From: an uncultured Succiniclasticum sp.
GTDB lineage: Bacteria > Bacillota > Negativicutes > Acidaminococcales > Acidaminococcaceae
Length of the DNA: 44,836 bases
Assembly (NCBI GenBank): GCA_905235335.1
Contig: CAJOKZ010000003.1
Location: 1-44,836, forward strand
Direction: 5' to 3'
Shown piece after piece: positions 11,505 through 20,979 of the stretch; the first letter of the stretch is position 1; each line of letters starts with the position of its first letter. The notes beneath the pieces are model-generated. The model searched no databases. It was given only the letters and a program-made list of their open reading frames with translations, and was not told the origin of the DNA. Made by a program: the position numbers and the translations under genes.

Positions 11505-14500
11505 TCAGACTGCTTTCTGTGATTTTCGCTTTTCTTTGTATTCTTCCGTCAGCATATAAATCAGTGGTACTACGACCAGCGTTAACAGGGTCGATGTGGT
11601 AAGCCCGCCGATCAATACGACACCCATGCTCTGCCGCAACTCTGCGCCGGCGCCAATACCCAGTGCCACAGGCAACATACCGAGCATGGTGGACAGCGTA
11701 GTCATCAAAATCGGACGAAGGCGCAGGGAACAGGCTTCCAGAACAGCTTTTTTCAGTGGCAGCCCCTTTTCCCTTGCCTGATTGGCATAGTCAACCAATA
11801 GAATCGCGTTTTTTGTAACCAGGCCTAACAGCATGGTAATGCCGATCAGGGACATCATGTTTCCGGTCTGGTTGGCAACCAAGAGCCCCAGCACCGCGCC
11901 GATGATGGCAAAAGGAAGACTCATCATGATAACAAATGGCTGGGTAAAGCTTTCAAATTCAGCAGCCAGCACCATATAAATCAATACAATAGCGAGAACC
12001 ACCGCTTTAACTATTTCCCTGAAGACACGGCTCATCATGTCAGAGTTTCCAATCAATTTATACCGGTATCCGATATCCATATTCAGTTCCGGAATCAACT
12101 GTCCTTCGATGATTCTCAGCAGGTCGCCGGCAGAGGTCCCTACCGTATTGGAATACACCCCGATCTGGCGCTGGCGGCCTTCCCGGTCGATACGCGTAGG
12201 ACCAGAACCAAGCGTCACTTCCGCCACATCTCCAAGACGGACGAACGTGCCGGTTTCGGTGGAAACCAGCAGATTCGCAACGTCCTGGATGGTCCTGCGG
12301 TCATTTCTATCCATCTGTATGACGATATCATAGTCATTATTACCAATCGTATACGAGTTAGTTGTACTCTTACCCTGGAACGCATACTGCACGACCTTAC
12401 CGACACTGGTGTTATCCAGTCCCAGTTGGCTTGCTTTCATCTGGTCCAACCGCACCATGATCTCTGGTTCCGGGTCGATACCTACCACTTCTACGTCCGC
12501 AGAGCCCGGCGTCTGGCGTATTTTTTCCGCAAGATCGTTGGCATATCTTGTCAGTTTGGTCAGATCGCTGCCCCGTAAACCAATCTGCACCGGCCTCGGA
12601 TCCCCGCGGTTGCCCTGATTGGTTACTACCGAGACCTGCATCTCGCCGATATCCCTAAAATCCCTGCGAAGCTCGTCCATAATGTCCAACATACCACGCT
12701 TCCGGTCTGCCAGCGGTTTTAGCCTGACTTCAATAGCTCCTTCGTTTACCGGAGTCCGAATCCCGCCCAAGTGCATTGCGGTTACGTTGACTTCTTTAAT
12801 TTTTCTTACCATGTCCTCCATCGGCTTTGACCATCTTGCCATCTGATCCAAACCAATGCCCGCCGGCGCCTTTAGGTTAACGCGAAACTCTCCGGAGTCA
12901 TAAATCGGCTGAAGTTCTGTTCCTACAAAGGGTATCAAAAAAAGATTGAATACCAATGTTGCAAGGGAACCGGCCACGATCTTTTTGGGATGCCGAATCG
13001 CAAAGGCCATCAGTTCATCATAAAGACCCCGCACATATTCAAACCCATTGTTAAAACGTTCCAAGGCAGAATCCACTAATGCCGGCCGCCTTGTTTTATC
13101 CTCCCCCGGCGCCTTCAGCCAGTGGGCGGAAACCATTGGGGTAAGGGAATATGCCGAAATGGTTGAGAACGTCAGCGCAAACGCCACGGTCAGACCAAAC
13201 TGCTTGAAGAACTGACCGACCGTCTCGCCCATGCTTCCGATCGGCACAAAGACAGCCAGTAACGACATGGAGGTTGCCAGAATCGCCAGTACCAGTTCTT
13301 TTGTGGCATCAGCAGAGGCACGGAACGGATCCTTTCCCAACTCCATATGCCGGAAGATATTTTCCACCAGAACGATAGCGTCGTCGATCAGGAACCCGAC
13401 CGCCAGTGACAACCCCATCAGGGACATATTGTTCAGGGTAAAATCCATGAGACCCATCAGGAAGAAAGTAGCGATGACAGACGTGGGAATCGCAAGGCCG
13501 CCGATAATTGTGGCTCGAAGGTCGCCAAGGAACATATAGGTAATCAGGAGAGCAAGGAATCCGCCGAACAAGATAGTATTCCAGACATCGGCCACATTTT
13601 CGCGGATATATCGGCTCTGATCCTGCACAACTGATACCTTGATATCCGGCGGCATATCCTGTTTCATAATCTTATTCAGTTCCTTGTTAACTGCATCAAT
13701 GACCTCGACGGTATTGGTGCGGCTCTGCTTCCGAACGGCCATCATAACGGACGGCACCCCATTCGTACGGGCAAAGGACTCTGCATCTTTCCAATCATCC
13801 TCCACATCCGCAACATCCGTCAGCCGGATGGGCTTTCCGTCCTTATTGGCAACAATGATCCGCTTAAAGTCGTCGATAGTATTCAGCTTGCCCATGGTAC
13901 GGACTGTGATGGTATTGTTATTATCCCTCACCTTGCCGCCCGGAGTATTGAGATTGGCATCATTTACCTTTTTCAGCACTGTCTGGAAGGAAATTTCGTA
14001 CTGATCCAGTTTTTCTGATTTTACATGGATCAGCATGGCCCGGTCCGCAGAACCGTAAACAGTCACATCCGCAACGCCTTCCAGCATCTGCAGGCTGTCG
14101 ACAACTACGTCCTTGACGATACGGCGGATCTCGCCGGTACTGCGTTTCTCCGAAGAGAACGTATAGTTCGCGATAGCCTGTGACGAAATATCAAACCTTT
14201 GTACCACCGGCTCGTCGATATCATCCGGCAACATCCGGCGCACGCCAGCCACCTTTTCGCGAACCTCACTGGACATCTGGCGCGGGTCGACCCCCATCTC
14301 AAATTCCAGCACCGTCTGGGAATACCCCTCGCGGATCGTTGATGTAATGGTCTTTATACCGGAAACCTGACTCACCCGGCTCTCGATGGGTTTTGTGATC
14401 AGCGTCTCCATCTCTTCAGGAGCTGTGCCTTCGTAAGTAACGGTAACACCGACCATAGGAAGGTCCACATCCGGATAAAGATCCACACCCAGTCCCGGAT

Positions 14501-14579
14501 ACGCACGAATGCCGAATACAATCAATACCAGGATAAACATTGTGGTAAAGACAGGACGTTTGATAAAAGTTTCTATCAT
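11505..14579 (-). CDS. RND efflux pump, inner-membrane transporter (AcrB/MdtC, HAE1 family)
   Basis: 1024 residues, the standard length. It starts MIETFIKRPVFTTM with the first TM helix, then a large periplasmic loop, the central membrane block with the proton-relay pair in FLIDDAIVLVENI, a second periplasmic loop, and a C-terminal membrane block (LLGLVTKNAILLVDYA). It is a proton-driven exporter of drugs, detergents or lipids. It starts four bases inside the end of the adaptor gene, so translation is coupled. No TolC-like outer-membrane channel is present in the window, so the third component must be elsewhere. Confidence 0.94.
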   Translation of the reverse strand: MIETFIKRPVFTTMFILVLIVFGIRAYPGLGVDLYPDVDLPMVGVTVTYEGTAPEEMETLITKPIESRVSQVSGIKTITSTIREGYSQTVLEFEMGVDPRQMSSEVREKVAGVRRMLPDDIDEPVVQRFDISSQAIANYTFSSEKRSTGEIRRIVKDVVVDSLQMLEGVADVTVYGSADRAMLIHVKSEKLDQYEISFQTVLKKVNDANLNTPGGKVRDNNNTITVRTMGKLNTIDDFKRIIVANKDGKPIRLTDVADVEDDWKDAESFARTNGVPSVMMAVRKQSRTNTVEVIDAVNKELNKIMKQDMPPDIKVSVVQDQSRYIRENVADVWNTILFGGFLALLITYMFLGDLRATIIGGLAIPTSVIATFFLMGLMDFTLNNMSLMGLSLAVGFLIDDAIVLVENIFRHMELGKDPFRASADATKELVLAILATSMSLLAVFVPIGSMGETVGQFFKQFGLTVAFALTFSTISAYSLTPMVSAHWLKAPGEDKTRRPALVDSALERFNNGFEYVRGLYDELMAFAIRHPKKIVAGSLATLVFNLFLIPFVGTELQPIYDSGEFRVNLKAPAGIGLDQMARWSKPMEDMVRKIKEVNVTAMHLGGIRTPVNEGAIEVRLKPLADRKRGMLDIMDELRRDFRDIGEMQVSVVTNQGNRGDPRPVQIGLRGSDLTKLTRYANDLAEKIRQTPGSADVEVVGIDPEPEIMVRLDQMKASQLGLDNTSVGKVVQYAFQGKSTTNSYTIGNNDYDIVIQMDRNDRRTIQDVANLLVSTETGTFVRLGDVAEVTLGSGPTRIDREGRQRQIGVYSNTVGTSAGDLLRIIEGQLIPELNMDIGYRYKLIGNSDMMSRVFREIVKAVVLAIVLIYMVLAAEFESFTQPFVIMMSLPFAIIGAVLGLLVANQTGNMMSLIGITMLLGLVTKNAILLVDYANQAREKGLPLKKAVLEACSLRLRPILMTTLSTMLGMLPVALGIGAGAELRQSMGVVLIGGLTTSTLLTLVVVPLIYMLTEEYKEKRKSQKAV

Positions 14580-15709
14580 TCTTTTCCCGATTCCTTCCCT
14601 GACACTTTAACGTCTGCGCCTTCACGGACCTTGTTCAGTCCTCCGGTAATAATATAATCCTTCTCGCTGACGCCGCCCAACACTTCCACCAGATTCTCCC
14701 CTATGTATCCGGTAGTCAGTATCTTTCGCACTGCCTTTCCATCTTCTATGGCGAAACAGGTGCGCTGGTCATCCCTCATGGAAATGGCTGTCATGGGAAT
14801 CGTCAGCACGTTGTTTTTCGGAATTGCGGTAATCAGCGCCTCCGCATACATACCGCCCCGCAGGCGGTTATCGCTGTTATCCACCGTAACCTCTGCCTCA
14901 AAAGTCCGAGCCGGCTGCATCGCAACCGGGCTGATGCGGGTAATACGCCCCTTTGCCGTTTTATCGTCGCCACTCATGGACGGAATGGTAAATACCACCT
15001 CTCCTCCTACAGCCACGCTGTTGACATATCCTTCGGGAACATCAATCTTCGCGAGCAGGGTGGAAATATCTGCGATATTAAACAAGGCTGTCCCAACCTT
15101 GGCGTAATATCCTTCCTGGAAATAGCGCTTCTGAACAATACCTTTTCGAGGTGTGGTTACGGTAGTGCCTCCCATGTTTGATTCGGCGGAAGAAAGACTA
15201 CCCTGGGCAGCCTCCAGTTTTCCCCTGGCATTTTCCAGGGCAAAACGCATATTATCCAGCGCTTCCTGAGAAACCGCACCCTTCCGATATAGTTCTTCAT
15301 AACGACGCACATCCATCTTTGCTTTTTCATAATTTGTCTTGGCATCCAAATATGTGCCCTTGGCATTCATCAAACCAGCTGCCGTATCTATCTGTTCCAG
15401 CACAACCAGCGACTGCCCGGCTTTAACAGCTTGTCCTTCCTCCACGAGGACCTTTTCGATACGCCCGTCCACCTTAGCTGCCACATCAGCCTGCCATATG
15501 GGGTCCAGCGTACCGGAAAAACGGAATTTCGGTATAATCGTCTCCCGCTTGGGATAAGCAGCCGTAATCACGGCAGTCCGACCCTGCCTGCTGCTTTTGG
15601 CAGCCGTATTCCGTGCCATGATGTTCGAGATTACACGGAATGCGACCACTCCCAATATGACCACGACTCCGATGATAAGAATTCGCAACCTTTTATCCTG
15701 CAGATTCAT
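14576..15709 (-). CDS. RND efflux periplasmic adaptor (membrane fusion protein, HlyD/AcrA family)
   Basis: 377 residues. A single TM anchor is at about 8-27 (LRILIIGVVVILGVVAF) with no lipobox. Then come the first lipoyl half (ADVAAKVDGRIEKVLVEEGQAVKAGQ), a coiled-coil hairpin (about 112-175), the second lipoyl half, a beta barrel, and the membrane-proximal domain with GGVSEKDYIITGGLNKVREGADVKV. It links the RND pump to an outer-membrane channel. The ribosome site AGGAAGG lies inside the end of the upstream PilO-like gene, which it overlaps by 17 bases. Efflux and pilus genes are therefore in one transcript. Confidence 0.93.
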   Translation of the reverse strand: MNLQDKRLRILIIGVVVILGVVAFRVISNIMARNTAAKSSRQGRTAVITAAYPKRETIIPKFRFSGTLDPIWQADVAAKVDGRIEKVLVEEGQAVKAGQSLVVLEQIDTAAGLMNAKGTYLDAKTNYEKAKMDVRRYEELYRKGAVSQEALDNMRFALENARGKLEAAQGSLSSAESNMGGTTVTTPRKGIVQKRYFQEGYYAKVGTALFNIADISTLLAKIDVPEGYVNSVAVGGEVVFTIPSMSGDDKTAKGRITRISPVAMQPARTFEAEVTVDNSDNRLRGGMYAEALITAIPKNNVLTIPMTAISMRDDQRTCFAIEDGKAVRKILTTGYIGENLVEVLGGVSEKDYIITGGLNKVREGADVKVSGKESGKE

Positions 15710-16442
15710 GACTTTTCCTTCCTTTGTCCTCGTTTATACGCAAACATCTGCGCTCAGTCCCCGGAAAATAATATATGTTGATCCGCGCACGCAAAGTCAA
15801 TCCTAAGTCCTTGCCCCGTCGGACCTGCACGGTCTCCAGCCGTGAAATAGGATCCTGTGTCTCAATGTCTCTGATAAATTCCATCAGTGCCCACCATGTT
15901 CCGGCAAATTCCGTATCCCAGGCGAACCTTCGGATCCGGTGCTCTCCTGTTATGGAGCGCTCTTCCGTCAGCCCGTTGCTCTTGATACCGGTGCCGTTTT
16001 TTATCTTCTTCTCATCCGAGGAATTTTCATTCCCCCGTCCAGTACCTGCAGTGCCTACCGCGACACGCTTCATCTGTCGGACTATCACTCCATTTTGCTT
16101 TGCCGTCCTGCAGATCCAATCCGCCAAGCCGTTTTCTTCAGGTCGTTCCGGAAGACTGTCCTTTAACCGCTGCAGTGCTATCTGCTGTTGCATGAGCCTT
16201 TGCTTCCTGTCAGACTCATGAAGAAACTTGCGATAAACCACGATTTCTTTTTTCGCATACCTCGCCTGCTCATCCATCTTCAACATTTCTTGCCGCAGGG
16301 GCTGCACAACCTCTGTCACAGTGCAAGTCAGGAGGACGACTGAAAGCATCAGCATACAGGCATTTCTGTTGTTTTCAGTCATGCTCTTTTTAAATATTTG
16401 AATTTTTTTTAATGGCAGGAATGAATGTATCTGCAGATTCAT
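15693..16442 (-). CDS. PilO-like type IV pilus inner-membrane protein
   Basis: 249 residues. A short basic cytoplasmic head, one TM segment at about 29-47 (CMLMLSVVLLTCTVTEVV), then a coiled coil (about 50-95, rich in K/E/Q/R) and a small C-terminal domain interrupted by a polar low-complexity stretch (about 130-160). The topology and gene position fit PilO, which pairs with PilN in the periplasm. The closing segment (WWALMEFIRDIETQDPISRLE) resembles the PilO ferredoxin-like core. The assignment rests on topology and neighbours more than on strong motifs. The start overlaps the preceding stop by four bases (ATGA). Confidence 0.6.
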   Translation of the reverse strand: MNLQIHSFLPLKKIQIFKKSMTENNRNACMLMLSVVLLTCTVTEVVQPLRQEMLKMDEQARYAKKEIVVYRKFLHESDRKQRLMQQQIALQRLKDSLPERPEENGLADWICRTAKQNGVIVRQMKRVAVGTAGTGRGNENSSDEKKIKNGTGIKSNGLTEERSITGEHRIRRFAWDTEFAGTWWALMEFIRDIETQDPISRLETVQVRRGKDLGLTLRARINIYYFPGTERRCLRINEDKGRKSHESAG

Positions 16443-17560
16443 GGCAACGCCCCCTTCCTGTCAGGATTGAGACCTGCCTGAAGAATAAATGTCACTGCAG
16501 GATTTTCATATGTATCCGGGATTTTCCGTGTTATATCTCTCTCACTACTTTCCGCCATCCGTACTCCGGTGAGAATTTCTGAAGCTTTCAGCCGGTCCGC
16601 AAATTCCATGGACCGGGTCAGTGCCATAGAACAGCCATGTATCTCCAGCTGAGACGAAGATCCTTCTTTTCCCCTGATTTCCTCCAACCAACATTCATCC
16701 GGCAGGTTCTCTGCTACAGTTTCCAGCACCTGATGCCAAACAACAGTCTTTCGGGATATACCCTGGAGAGCTTTCCGGTATTCGCCGATCCGGTATTCCA
16801 GTTCCTTCCCTCTTATGTACTCCTTTTTGACCTCGTCCAGCGGTTGAAGCTGCTGCCGGACATCCTGCAGTATGTCTTTTTTCTGCTGCCATGCAACAGC
16901 ATTCCAGATTAAAAGTAGAAGAGAAATAGTCGTACAGAGAAATGTCAGCCCTTTATAAGTCCAATGGAGGGCTCTTTTTTTCCACGGTATCTTCGGGAGC
17001 AGGTTAATAGGAAGCACTGTCCCATCAGGGCACACAGCAGTTACTTCAACAAGCCCCGCTTGCAGAAATCCCGCGCAGCGCTTCAGACCGTCTAACTTCT
17101 CCTGTGGAAGTGCAACCAGGAGGAATGCCTTTTCTCCCGGCAGAGCGTCCTCTTTCCAGGATACAGCCATCTCTTCCCCACTCTCTCCCGAGTTCCAGGG
17201 ATACAGCGCTGCCTGATAGGTTCCCTGTTCAAAGGGGACATGCTTTCCACTTTCCCAAAAGATCCATTTTTCCTGCTGTTTGTCTGTCATATCCGGCAGC
17301 ATAAGTGTCTGCAGATAAACCTGACTGCTATCTAATACAAATCTGCATCTCCTGACACGAATGTGTTTCGCTTCCAGGACTGCTCGCAGCCACCCTGCCA
17401 TCTCTTCCGGGCGATACAGGTAATTGCAGTTTTGAAATGACTTCGGAAGATCCAGCGTCAATGATCTTTTTCCATGGCGGATCTCAATTTTCGACACTTC
17501 CGGAAGAAGTGTCGTCTTTTCACCGTAAAATAACGTAAAAAGAATGCGTGAAAAATCCAT
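16439..17560 (-). CDS. PilM-PilN fusion-like pilus assembly protein (GspL-like)
   Basis: 373 residues. Residues 1-180 are soluble and resemble a shortened PilM/GspL cytoplasmic domain. At 185-189 comes INLLPKIPWKKR, the usual first residues of a free-standing PilN, then one TM (about 203-223), a coiled coil (225-265) and a PilN-type domain with LPDECWLEEI (286-295) and LEIHGCS. So one chain appears to combine cytoplasmic PilM and membrane PilN roles, as GspL does in type II secretion. The PilM part is about half the normal 350 residues, so the actin-like ATPase fold is probably incomplete. The start is the ATG at 17560 after GGAGGAGG, 17 bases behind the peptidase stop. Confidence 0.65.
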   Translation of the reverse strand: MDFSRILFTLFYGEKTTLLPEVSKIEIRHGKRSLTLDLPKSFQNCNYLYRPEEMAGWLRAVLEAKHIRVRRCRFVLDSSQVYLQTLMLPDMTDKQQEKWIFWESGKHVPFEQGTYQAALYPWNSGESGEEMAVSWKEDALPGEKAFLLVALPQEKLDGLKRCAGFLQAGLVEVTAVCPDGTVLPINLLPKIPWKKRALHWTYKGLTFLCTTISLLLLIWNAVAWQQKKDILQDVRQQLQPLDEVKKEYIRGKELEYRIGEYRKALQGISRKTVVWHQVLETVAENLPDECWLEEIRGKEGSSSQLEIHGCSMALTRSMEFADRLKASEILTGVRMAESSERDITRKIPDTYENPAVTFILQAGLNPDRKGALP

Positions 17561-17577
17561 GACCGTGCCTCCTCCTG

Positions 17578-18198
17578 TTATAAAAACCAGGAAAGGTACC
17601 ATGCCAGGATCTGTGGCTGGTAAAAAAAGCTCAAACCCGCCCCCAAGCTGAGAAATGGACCAAAGGGAACCTTTGACTTCAGCGTAACTTTACGAAAGAC
17701 ACACAGCAAAACAGCTGCTATGCCGCTAGTTACAAACGCCAAGGCAAGACATACAAGTATACCCGGTGCTCCCAGCCAAACTCCCAGAACCCCTGTATAC
17801 TTCACATCGCCCAAACCAAATCCGCCTTTGCTCACGATGTAGATCAATCCAGTAACCAGAATGCCAGTAACAACTCCTGTCAACGGTTCCTGCCATCCCT
17901 CCCCGCAAGCCGTCCTGTAACCCAGTCCCGCAAATAAGATGACCAGAAGAATCTCGTCCAATATAATCATATGCCGGATATCAATATACGTTTCCACCGT
18001 CAGGCCAAAAAGAAATAGCCAAACAGTTACCAGACGGATACCCGGGAAAAAATAACATCCGGCAAAATATGCCAGAAACGACAGGAAAATCCCGAACAGC
18101 AATGTGCGGCACAACGTTACAGAATCATATCGGCGATTTAGGAATGAACCGCTTGCAACTCCAAGGAATAAACTGCTTAAAAACATAACAATTTTCAC
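17578..18198 (-). CDS. Prepilin peptidase (A24 aspartic protease), lacking the methyltransferase region
   Basis: 206 residues, almost wholly membrane-embedded (six to seven segments). The two catalytic aspartates are in ETYIDIRHMIILDEI (D73) and GGFGLGDVKY (D131), and the late KVPFGPFLSLGAG motif is also present. The N-terminus keeps GSFLNRRYDS, but the cytoplasmic domain with four cysteines that normally follows is missing, so it probably cleaves prepilins without N-methylating them. GTG 18198 is preferred because GAAAGGAG lies seven bases upstream; TTG 18216 is in frame but lacks a site. It is the first gene of the pilus-efflux operon. No pilin gene is visible nearby. Confidence 0.88.
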   Translation of the reverse strand: MKIVMFLSSLFLGVASGSFLNRRYDSVTLCRTLLFGIFLSFLAYFAGCYFFPGIRLVTVWLFLFGLTVETYIDIRHMIILDEILLVILFAGLGYRTACGEGWQEPLTGVVTGILVTGLIYIVSKGGFGLGDVKYTGVLGVWLGAPGILVCLALAFVTSGIAAVLLCVFRKVTLKSKVPFGPFLSLGAGLSFFYQPQILAWYLSWFL

Positions 18199-18324: not shown

Positions 18325-18354
18325 ATTATATCACTGATTAAACCGCAATGTATA
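18325..18354 (-). promoter_or_regulatory. Probable promoter of the pilus-efflux operon
   Basis: On the minus strand TATACA (18349-18354), 18 bases, then TATAAT (18325-18330) preceded by TG (extended -10). It lies about 125 bases before the prepilin peptidase start. The -35 is only fair. The 18217-18461 stretch holds no gene; several other AT-rich -10-like sequences occur on both strands there. Confidence 0.45.
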
Positions 18355-18461: not shown

Positions 18462-18489
18462 AAAAATCGGCATCCGAAAGGATGCCGAT
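18462..18489 (-). terminator. Terminator of the PEP synthase gene
   Basis: ATCGGCATCC-GAAA-GGATGCCGAT hairpin (18466-18489) followed on the minus strand by five T. It lies about 100 bases after the ppsA stop. Confidence 0.9.
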
Positions 18490-18585: not shown

Positions 18586-20979
18586 TTACCAGTTCAGATT
18601 CTCTGCTTCTTCGCGGCCTCTGTGAGTCAGGGAATCCAACAGTATGCGCTGCTCAATTTGTGCCGCCAGCTTTTTGGTAAATTTAACCGTATCCGGATTT
18701 ACGGATATGCTGTCGATGCCGCTCTTAATCAAGAATTCACAGAATTCCGGATATACCGACGGAGCCTGGCCACAGATGGAAACCGTCTTTCCAGCTTTAT
18801 GGGCCACCTCGATCAGATGACGCACGGCTCGCCGGACTGCCAAATTCCGTTCATCATAGATATGGGAAACAGTATCATTATCCCGGTCACATCCCAAGAT
18901 CAGCATGGTCAGGTCATTGGATCCGATGGAGTAGCCGTCCACGAACTCATTGAACTGGTCTGCCAGGATAATATTGGAAGGAATCTCCGCCATGAGCCAC
19001 ACCTTGAAATCCTTACCCCTGGCCAGTCCCTGCTCCGCCATGATGGCCGTAACCTTCCGGGCTTCATCAATATTACGGCAGAACGGAATCATAACGTTCA
19101 GGTTCTTTAAGCCGAACTCCTCACGGACCTTCCGTACCGCCTGGCATTCGAGCTTGAAACCTTCGATATATTTCGGGTCGTAGTAGCGGGAAGCTCCGCG
19201 CCAGCCCAATAGGGCAGAGGGTTCATAAGGCTCGAATTCGTCGCCGCCTTTCAGGTCGCGATATTCGCTGGATTTAAAATCGCTGAAACGCAGGGTCACC
19301 GGACGCGGCGCCATGGCCTGGCAGACCTGTCGGATGCCTTCAGCTAATTGATCCACAACCTTTTCCGGATGGCCTGTCTTAATGAGGTACAGGGGATGTT
19401 CATGGATATAAGTCGTCCAAATGAATTCCTCGCGCATCAGACCGATGCCATCGCAGGGAAGAGATGCGTATTTTTCTGCCAGTTCTGGATCGCCAAGATT
19501 CATATAGATCTTTGTGCCAGTAGGCGGGAAGAACTCAGCCGTCACCGTTGCACCGGCCGCAGGAGCTGCAACGGCGGCAGCCGGTTTTGTTTCTTCCAGA
19601 ATACCTTCATAAACTACGCCATGGGTGGCATCTACCGTAATGTCATCGCCATTTTGAATGGACGCAGTAGCCGCTGCGCCTCGGCTTTTGGTGCCGACGA
19701 TACAGGGAATCCCCAATTCGCGGCTGACGATGGAAGCATGACAGGTCATGCCACCGCTGTCGGTGACGATAGCTTTCGCTTTTTTCATAGCCGGTACCCA
19801 GTCAGGCGCAGTCATTTCTGTGACCAGAATTTCGCCCTGTTTAAATTCATCGATCATAGACGGGTCAAGAATGACATGGGCTTTGCCGGCAACCTGTCCG
19901 GGACTTGCAGGGGCGCCTTTAACGATTACATTACGCTCCACGGTAGTAGCCTCCTTTGCTTCCGTTTTCTCAGTTTCTTTTGCCTTACGACGGCTCCAGA
20001 CCGTCTCAGGGCGGGCCTGCAGGATCCATATCTTACCGTCCCTTTCGTCAATACCCCACTCCATATCCATATAGCAACCATAATGCTTTTCAATCTTCAG
20101 CGCATATCCGGCCAGCTCTTTAATCTGCGCGTCCGTCAGCTTCTGAGCTTCGCCTTCCTCTTTCGGCACCGTAACTTCTTCCACATCACCGCCCGGTTTG
20201 CGGATCAGCTTAATTTCCTGCGGATTAATTGTCTTTTCCAGAATTTCCAGCTTATCCTTGGATACCAGATAGTCATCCGGTGTTACCGTGCCCTGAACAA
20301 CATATTCGCCCAGACCGTAAGCGCCTTCGATCAACACGTTCTTGTCTTCGCCATTAGCTACATTGACCGTAAACATAACGCCGGCAGCCTTAGAATATAC
20401 CATCATCTGAATAACGGCAGACAAGGCCACATCCAGATGGTCAAATCCCTGTTTCTCCCGATAATATACGGCACGGTCGGTAAAACAGGAAGCATAGCAT
20501 TCCTTAACCTTTTGAATAATCATTTTGGCGCCCTGGACATTCAGGTATGTATCCTGCTGTCCTGCAAAGCTTGCATCAGGAAGATCCTCTGCCGTAGCGC
20601 TGGACCGAACGGCTACGTAAGGTTCCTTTTCACCAACCTTCTTACCCAATTCTTTATACGCCTTGGTAATAGCAGCCTGCAGATCCTTGGGCATTTCTTC
20701 GTCCATGATTGCCTTACGGAGTTTTGCGCTGATATCCCGCAAAAGCGCTGTATTTTCCACATCGGTCAGTTGTGAAATCAGGTCCGCCATTTTCTGCTTT
20801 AGACCGGTCTTTTCTATAAAGTAACGGTATGCGTATGCAGTTGTCGCATAGCCATAGGGAACCGGCACATCTGTTTTAGCCGTCATCTCTCCCAGCGAGG
20901 AGGATTTCCCACCGACAATTGCTACATCTTTGCGTTCCATCTGCTCAAACCACAACAGATATTCCTTTTCTTTCTCCAT
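18586..20979 (-). CDS. ppsA: Phosphoenolpyruvate synthase (pyruvate, water dikinase)
   Basis: 797 residues, the standard PpsA length. It makes PEP from pyruvate and ATP, giving AMP and phosphate, for gluconeogenesis. The N-terminal ATP-grasp domain has AVRSSATAEDLPDASFAGQQ (from about 123), a swivelling domain carries the phosphohistidine in GGMTCHASI (H414), and the C-terminal PEP-binding barrel has GLMREEFI and the catalytic cysteine in SICGQAPS (about 743). A disordered K/E-rich linker (about 330-347) precedes the swivelling domain. Its water-dikinase architecture (about 800 residues) separates it from pyruvate phosphate dikinase (about 880). The start ATG has AAGGAGAG upstream. Its own promoter overlaps a 16-base palindrome. 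Confidence 0.95.
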   Translation of the reverse strand: MEKEKEYLLWFEQMERKDVAIVGGKSSSLGEMTAKTDVPVPYGYATTAYAYRYFIEKTGLKQKMADLISQLTDVENTALLRDISAKLRKAIMDEEMPKDLQAAITKAYKELGKKVGEKEPYVAVRSSATAEDLPDASFAGQQDTYLNVQGAKMIIQKVKECYASCFTDRAVYYREKQGFDHLDVALSAVIQMMVYSKAAGVMFTVNVANGEDKNVLIEGAYGLGEYVVQGTVTPDDYLVSKDKLEILEKTINPQEIKLIRKPGGDVEEVTVPKEEGEAQKLTDAQIKELAGYALKIEKHYGCYMDMEWGIDERDGKIWILQARPETVWSRRKAKETEKTEAKEATTVERNVIVKGAPASPGQVAGKAHVILDPSMIDEFKQGEILVTEMTAPDWVPAMKKAKAIVTDSGGMTCHASIVSRELGIPCIVGTKSRGAAATASIQNGDDITVDATHGVVYEGILEETKPAAAVAAPAAGATVTAEFFPPTGTKIYMNLGDPELAEKYASLPCDGIGLMREEFIWTTYIHEHPLYLIKTGHPEKVVDQLAEGIRQVCQAMAPRPVTLRFSDFKSSEYRDLKGGDEFEPYEPSALLGWRGASRYYDPKYIEGFKLECQAVRKVREEFGLKNLNVMIPFCRNIDEARKVTAIMAEQGLARGKDFKVWLMAEIPSNIILADQFNEFVDGYSIGSNDLTMLILGCDRDNDTVSHIYDERNLAVRRAVRHLIEVAHKAGKTVSICGQAPSVYPEFCEFLIKSGIDSISVNPDTVKFTKKLAAQIEQRILLDSLTHRGREEAENLNW

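Follow-up and report, generated by a model that had tools for sequence, protein, structure and literature searches.

A half-size PilM fused to PilN at the base of a probable reduced type IVa pilus in Succiniclasticum

How much of PilM does a type IV pilus need? This question is raised by three genes in a 44,836-nucleotide stretch of DNA from an uncultured rumen bacterium, Succiniclasticum sp. (contig CAJOKZ010000003.1, positions 1 to 44,836; hereafter the window). They encode a prepilin peptidase without a methylase domain, a fusion of a half-size PilM with PilN, and PilO. An earlier note, made from the sequence by itself, described them as a compact pilus module and proposed a simplified type IV pilus or competence system. 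We put at roughly 70% the probability that they form the inner-membrane base and the pilin-processing part of a living, reductively evolved, retractable type IVa pilus (T4aP), with the rest of its genes at two other loci. Of a machine spread over three loci, the module makes up one third. The proposal of a simplified pilus stands as a reduced type IVa machine, and its competence part is plausible only. We add two points that rest on sequence comparisons: what is missing is the C-terminal nucleotide-binding half of PilM, and the extension ATPase PilB has lost its MshEN domain in concert with it.

The module and what remains of PilM

The three genes are consecutive, tightly packed open reading frames (ORFs) on the minus strand, between ppdK and the genes of a resistance-nodulation-division (RND) adaptor and pump. 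They are a pilD-like gene (17578-18198, 206 aa, GTG start, Shine-Dalgarno sequence AAAGGAG), the pilM-pilN fusion (16439-17560, 373 aa) and pilO (15693-16442, 249 aa). The frame of the fusion is open to 17602, and its ATG at 17560 lies behind AGGAGG. Relatives were taken from genomes of the same family, the Acidaminococcaceae, and from a scan that used the neighboring RND adaptor (membrane fusion protein, MFP) as query, a search for the locus with the fusion alone having returned no relative. The closest genomes that carry a name belong to Succiniclasticum, S. ruminis DSM 9236 among them, which places the window in a Succiniclasticum-type member of this family. The order ppdK-pilD-pilM(-)N-pilO-MFP-RND is kept in many of these genomes, with pilM and pilN fused or separate. 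At the equivalent position in Phascolarctobacterium faecium, pilM and pilN are two genes, and some relatives carry the full string pilB-pilT-pilC-pilA-pilA-pilD-pilM-pilN-pilO-MFP-RND. Because this order is so widely conserved, and because the ratio of nonsynonymous to synonymous substitution rates (dN/dS) of the fusion is 0.2-0.4 among related Succiniclasticum genomes, a sign of purifying selection, the compact module is not a product of chance. An assembly or frameshift artefact was rejected, since dozens of intact fusion frames exist in independent assemblies.

What is the long chain in the middle of this module? In Pfam, only its last part found a match (PilN, E value 1.2e-8), and its PilM part matched no family. 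A profile built from the reduced fusions alone retrieved from the PDB both PilM (3jc8, 6.9e-12; 2ych, 2e-10) and PilN (3jc8, 9.2e-6) and no GspL; nor does the fusion match a GspL family in Pfam or NCBIfam. An AlphaFold2 (AF2) model (mean pLDDT 88) points the same way. Its residues 13-190 superpose on PilM:PilN 5eou (VIA Z 12.6, root-mean-square deviation [rmsd] 3.1, 162 aligned) and its residues 8-181 on residues 11-178 of 2ych (Z 10.1, rmsd 3.7, 155 aligned), whereas the match of this part to cyto-EpsL, a cytoplasmic GspL domain, scores lower (Z 9.9). Residues ~8-190 thus fold as PilM and less closely as cyto-GspL. Farther on come a helix with a transmembrane segment and a coiled coil (residues 193-271) and the periplasmic ferredoxin-like domain of PilN (16466-16741, minus strand, residues 274-365), recognized by Pfam and by fold. 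Residues 273-364 match XcpY (Z 10.8), and the periplasmic part as a whole matches those of XcpY, PulL and PilO with Z 8.7-10.8. One chain therefore holds an actin-like cytoplasmic domain, a membrane segment and a periplasmic ferredoxin-like domain.

Alignment with separate PilM proteins locates the loss. The PilM-derived part (17018-17560, minus strand, residues ~1-181) begins with a degenerate stretch that lacks the GIDIG phosphate loop. It continues with the segment "VYLQTLMLPDMT...WESGKHVPFE...FLLVALPQEKLDGL," which aligns to subdomain 1C. In terms of PilM structure, the two pieces are a remnant of subdomain 1A and subdomain 1C. Beyond 1C, the DIG and GGG motifs and the second domain are gone. 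INLLP, the peptide with which PilN begins and binds PilM, comes directly after (16994-17008, minus strand, residues 185-189 of 373) and aligns with the N termini of PilN proteins that are encoded separately. The earlier note had thus rightly placed INLLP at residue 185 of a longer chain and rightly likened the first part of that chain to half a PilM. For comparison, the separate proteins of P. faecium match Pfam as PilM (1.5e-38), PilN (2e-12) and PilO (6e-15). No second PilM was found in the source genome: the PF11104 matches that we opened are two MreB-like proteins, and the remaining matches are weak. We conclude from the alignments and gene order that the resident pilM and pilN fused to give this protein, from which the nucleotide-binding half of PilM was lost. 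The PilM N-terminal half, PilN and PilO resemble those of known T4aP (T. thermophilus 2YCH, P. aeruginosa 5EOU, M. xanthus 3JC8) in sequence, fold, gene order and INLLP, but PilM and PilN here share one chain, without the PilM C-terminal half and its phosphate loop. We found no description of a half-PilM-PilN fusion in the open-access literature, subscription journals being outside the search.

The reduction is graded across the family. Fusions of ~480 aa keep most of PilM, and one genus among them has a recognizable VDIGSSNIK loop (L057). Those of Succiniclasticum (373-392 aa) keep the 1A remnant and 1C, and those of some Phascolarctobacterium (~290 aa, 291 aa given; L123, L127, L128, L129) keep 1C alone. 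The genomes can be set out as a natural series of deletions, from complete PilM through a fused, nearly complete PilM and the 1A remnant with 1C to 1C alone. In one genus (g2), the fusion goes further, with PilD, PilM and PilN in single frames of 748-850 aa (L216 4231-6477; L217 2831-5383; L064 7800-10238), and frames of 752-868 aa in this genus hold methylase, peptidase, PilM-derived and PilN parts. As a separate observation, the PilN part of the window fusion weakly matches NCBIfam NF045709 (Amuc_1101, a 608-aa "PilM-like pilus complex" protein), as does a fusion of a second family discussed below (L230 10025-11266). The scores, 19 and 28 bits against a curated cut-off of 650, do not make them members. 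The weak match suggests that Akkermansia may have a PilM-PilN fusion of its own.

The peptidase and PilO complete the module. The pilD-like protein matches Peptidase_A24 (1.4e-14) and is the sole A24 peptidase of the genome, and a Pfam search found the methylase domain PF06750 nowhere in that genome. In the alignment, GSFLN and both catalytic aspartates (D73 and the GxGD aspartate D131, in the numbering of the 206-aa protein) are kept, as the earlier note had read. The cytoplasmic loop with its two CxxC pairs, which lies beyond GSFLN, is deleted; P. faecium and the outgroups still carry it. PF06750 occurs in 18 of the 59 family genomes, namely those with separate pilM, the triple-fusion genus g2 and two members of g6, and two fused genomes of the second family retain both CxxC pairs. 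Every clear loss of the methylase therefore lies in a fused lineage, nested inside it; methylase loss was observed only there. TadV and its relatives likewise consist of an A24 domain with two aspartates and no methylase domain, but here the loss is lineage specific and affected a bifunctional PilD encoded within a T4aP locus; syntenic relatives keep the CxxC pairs. The PilO-like protein has no Pfam match by itself. It is homologous and syntenic to P. faecium PilO (PF04350, 6e-15), its profile retrieves PilO from the PDB (3jc8, 3.2e-16), and its AF2 model matches PilO 2rjz (Z 14.4, rmsd 3.7, 114 aligned).

The rest of the machine and the joint loss of MshEN

Is there a pilus for this base to serve? 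A search of the source genome, a 116-contig assembly, recovered PilB, PilT, PilC, a secretin, a pilin and minor pilins. On contig C21, the genes of PilB and PilT are neighbors and are transcribed away from those of a 310-aa protein and of the secretin PilQ (L007 12950-14467; Secretin, 1e-42). Contig C9 carries PilC, three minor-pilin-like proteins, a PilX-like protein and a pilin that contains GFSLIEV. This pilin has a class III leader (G/F....E5), RRNGGFSLIEVI (PF07963, 4.9e-6). ComEC is also present (G000:C36, 1.7e-51). The 310-aa protein (L007 11915-12847), whose gene lies between pilB and pilQ, matches no Pfam family above the cut-off, PilP included; its position and a C-terminal "GxF...GDxL...YxIxxI" pattern suggest that it may be a diverged PilP. 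The genome thus has a class III pilin, PilB, PilT, PilC, PilQ, PilN and PilO, as expected of type IVa. It lacks a separate, complete, nucleotide-binding PilM and a PilB with an N-terminal MshEN/GSPII domain. We call the system a T4aP-derived variant and not an ordinary T4aP because it has no complete separate PilM. Of the two outcomes that the earlier note named as refuting it, a first part of the chain that does not fold like PilM or GspL and a genome without any pilin or assembly ATPase, neither is seen.

The second absence may be tied to the first. PilB of the source genome (423 aa) lacks MshEN, and PF05157 is absent from the whole genome. Across the family, the domain occurs in nine of 59 genomes. 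PilM and PilN are separate in seven of these; in another, a separate PilM stands at the end of a contig, and in the ninth (G021) neither pilM nor pilN turned up. The 41 genomes with a fusion all lack the domain, yet each of them has the PilB core (381-468 aa in complete copies). Wherever PilM and PilN are separate and PilB was found, in seven genomes, the domain is kept; G029 (separate genes, 81% complete, no PilB in the assembly) was left out of this count. On the PilB tree of the family, these patterns amount to a single change. Hence, we do not use the counts as independent events, and a second case was sought in a class-wide search.

This search revealed a family of another order, f13 (probably Selenomonadaceae), with PilM and PilN in one frame and the identical half of PilM lost in the alignment. 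The comparison covers genomes with pilB inside the fetched stretch. All three such f13 genomes, two of them near-identical, have a core-only PilB (426-435 aa), whereas in other families all eight fetched genomes whose pilM and pilN are separate have an MshEN-bearing PilB of 558-594 aa. In the PilB core tree, the two MshEN-less groups stand apart, and their joint grouping is rejected by the approximately unbiased (AU) test (p-AU 0.0009), as is therefore a single origin of the two fused families. The co-reduction is thus convergent. Some f13 fusions lack INLLP (L231 9970-11127, L233 9091-10260, L235 9547-10719), as expected where the PilM and PilN parts are covalently joined.

A different event affects pilB in S. 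ruminis DSM 9236 (G044), where the gene is broken after ...RSILRQD by an inserted element (L208/L250 18313-19083 and L207 1085-2891; also L251-L255). The element carries a large serine recombinase and small ORFs for Nif11-like leader peptides, with several cytosine-methylase-like genes beyond the N-terminal half of pilB. Three more genomes break at the identical codon, their contigs ending there, and in G052 a fragment of pilT has two serine recombinases next to it. The interruption can be likened to the prophage insertion in Listeria comK.

Surroundings of the module

Downstream of pilO lies the MFP gene (14576-15709, minus strand), which overlaps the 3' end of pilO. It is a conserved neighbor by synteny and stands outside the pilus machine. 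The RND pump with its adaptor (window 11505-15709) after pilO and ppdK before pilD recur in many Acidaminococcaceae genomes, and in other Negativicutes, too, MFP-RND genes lie at a distance of a few kb from pilMNO. Upstream of the pilD-like gene, ppdK (18586-20979, minus strand) is followed by a terminator-like hairpin (18466-18489). Downstream of the hairpin, a consensus scan alone gives a candidate promoter (18325-18354, minus strand; TATACA-18-TATAAT with TG before the second hexamer); in the same scan, promoter-like sites in the region showed no excess over shuffled sequence.

What the reduced pilus may do

How could such a machine work? In ordinary T4aP, MshEN and the C-terminal half of PilM would act as one signaling unit, directly or indirectly. 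The loss of either would then free the other, because the two would be parts of one unit. What remains of PilM could be a covalently tethered, nucleotide-independent collar; it would hold the core ATPase of PilB in place beneath PilC and transmit force to PilN-PilO as well as the secretin. Prepilins would still be cleaved, but their N-terminal phenylalanine would stay unmethylated. The pilus would be retractable, PilT being kept, and would serve DNA uptake, ComEC being present. A pilus used mainly for DNA uptake could lose MshEN and the nucleotide-binding half of PilM while keeping 1C as the tethered collar. Some data from T. thermophilus bear on this scheme. PilM unable to bind ATP still binds the motor and, with PilN, stimulates it; motors without GSPII (MshEN-type) domains bind PilMN and are unstimulated; and deletion of GSPIIC abolishes type IV pili and twitching, yet leaves the cells hypertransformable (PMC6325625). 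The N-terminal domain of PilB is thought to meet PilM (PMC11656802). We regard DNA uptake as the most likely role of the pilus, which would be a competence-like core machine that retains its secretin. This is consistent with the one high-quality family genome without ComEC (G027), in which an A24 peptidase is likewise missing and no PilB exceeds the cut-off used for the family, and with the Veillonella type IV pilus locus being a competence locus (PMC5397411). Core-only extension ATPases, ComEC and likely DNA uptake are shared with the Com pili of monoderm Firmicutes, but those lack PilMNO, PilT and a secretin (PMC10191384), all of which are present here, with PilM reduced. Secretin-bearing type IV pili were already known in Negativicutes (PMC5007114).

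Several points weigh against this interpretation. The contact between MshEN and the lost half of PilM is putative. The co-loss rests on two independent transitions, too few for a statistically strong correlation between events. We found no expression, piliation or transformation data for Succiniclasticum in the searchable literature. Adhesion could be the role of the pilus, and the retention of PilT is compatible with motility. A broader proposal, which we advance tentatively and with somewhat less than even odds, is that MshEN and the nucleotide-binding half of PilM form one dispensable regulatory or coupling module. Bacteria using the pilus for uptake only would repeatedly drop both, 1C-PilN would be the minimal PilM core, and methylation would become dispensable only afterwards.

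The strongest alternative, though an unlikely one, is that these are ordinary adhesive or twitching pili and that the lost domains were purely regulatory. MshEN binds cyclic di-GMP (c-di-GMP) in several PilB proteins (PMC11656802), and such sensing could have been given up in host-associated bacteria that keep PilT and PilQ for adhesion or twitching. Loss of regulation alone, however, leaves the simultaneous loss of half of PilM unexplained, and the Thermus motors without GSPIIC lose piliation and twitching while transformation persists (PMC6325625). A decaying, non-functional pilus would account for the lost domains, for the scattering of the genes across three loci and for the broken pilB. 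This is improbable in view of the intact frames in dozens of species, the intact catalytic motifs of PilB and PilD, the whole gene set retained in nearly all genomes and the equal end state reached twice; the dN/dS of the fusion likewise speaks against it. Least probable, and largely refuted, is that the fusion is a GspL of a type II secretion system (T2SS) that exports proteins instead of building a pilus: it shares with GspL a chain of ~400 aa, its domain architecture and fold matches (cyto-EpsL; XcpY/PulL, Z 9.6-10.8), but its profile retrieves PilM and PilN, synteny derives it independently from the resident pilM and pilN, its cytoplasmic part is more reduced, PilT adjoins PilB, the partner gene encodes PilO and not GspM, and the partner ATPase lacks the N-terminal domain through which the ATPases of T2SS attach to EpsL/XpsL. 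That GspL is itself a PilM-PilN fusion was already known (PMC10191384). The earlier description of our protein as GspL-like thus holds for architecture and, more weakly, for fold, but not for descent.

Returning to a reduced T4aP, the finding touches several questions: why T4aP need PilM, what PilM-bound ATP does, what the N-terminal domain of PilB is for and why pilins are methylated. According to a 2023 review, what pilin methylation does has been a mystery for over 40 years; the review also asks why there should be PilMNOP at all (PMC10191384). The convergently reduced base can serve as a natural experiment that bears on PilM, on the MshEN domain of PilB and on the methylation of pilins, and it is open to direct test in S. 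ruminis, a cultured species of the genus. Since the motor domain was lost on the branches of PilM reduction, twice, the pattern names the parts of a minimal machine. The two families show which parts of the type IV pilus machine are dispensable.

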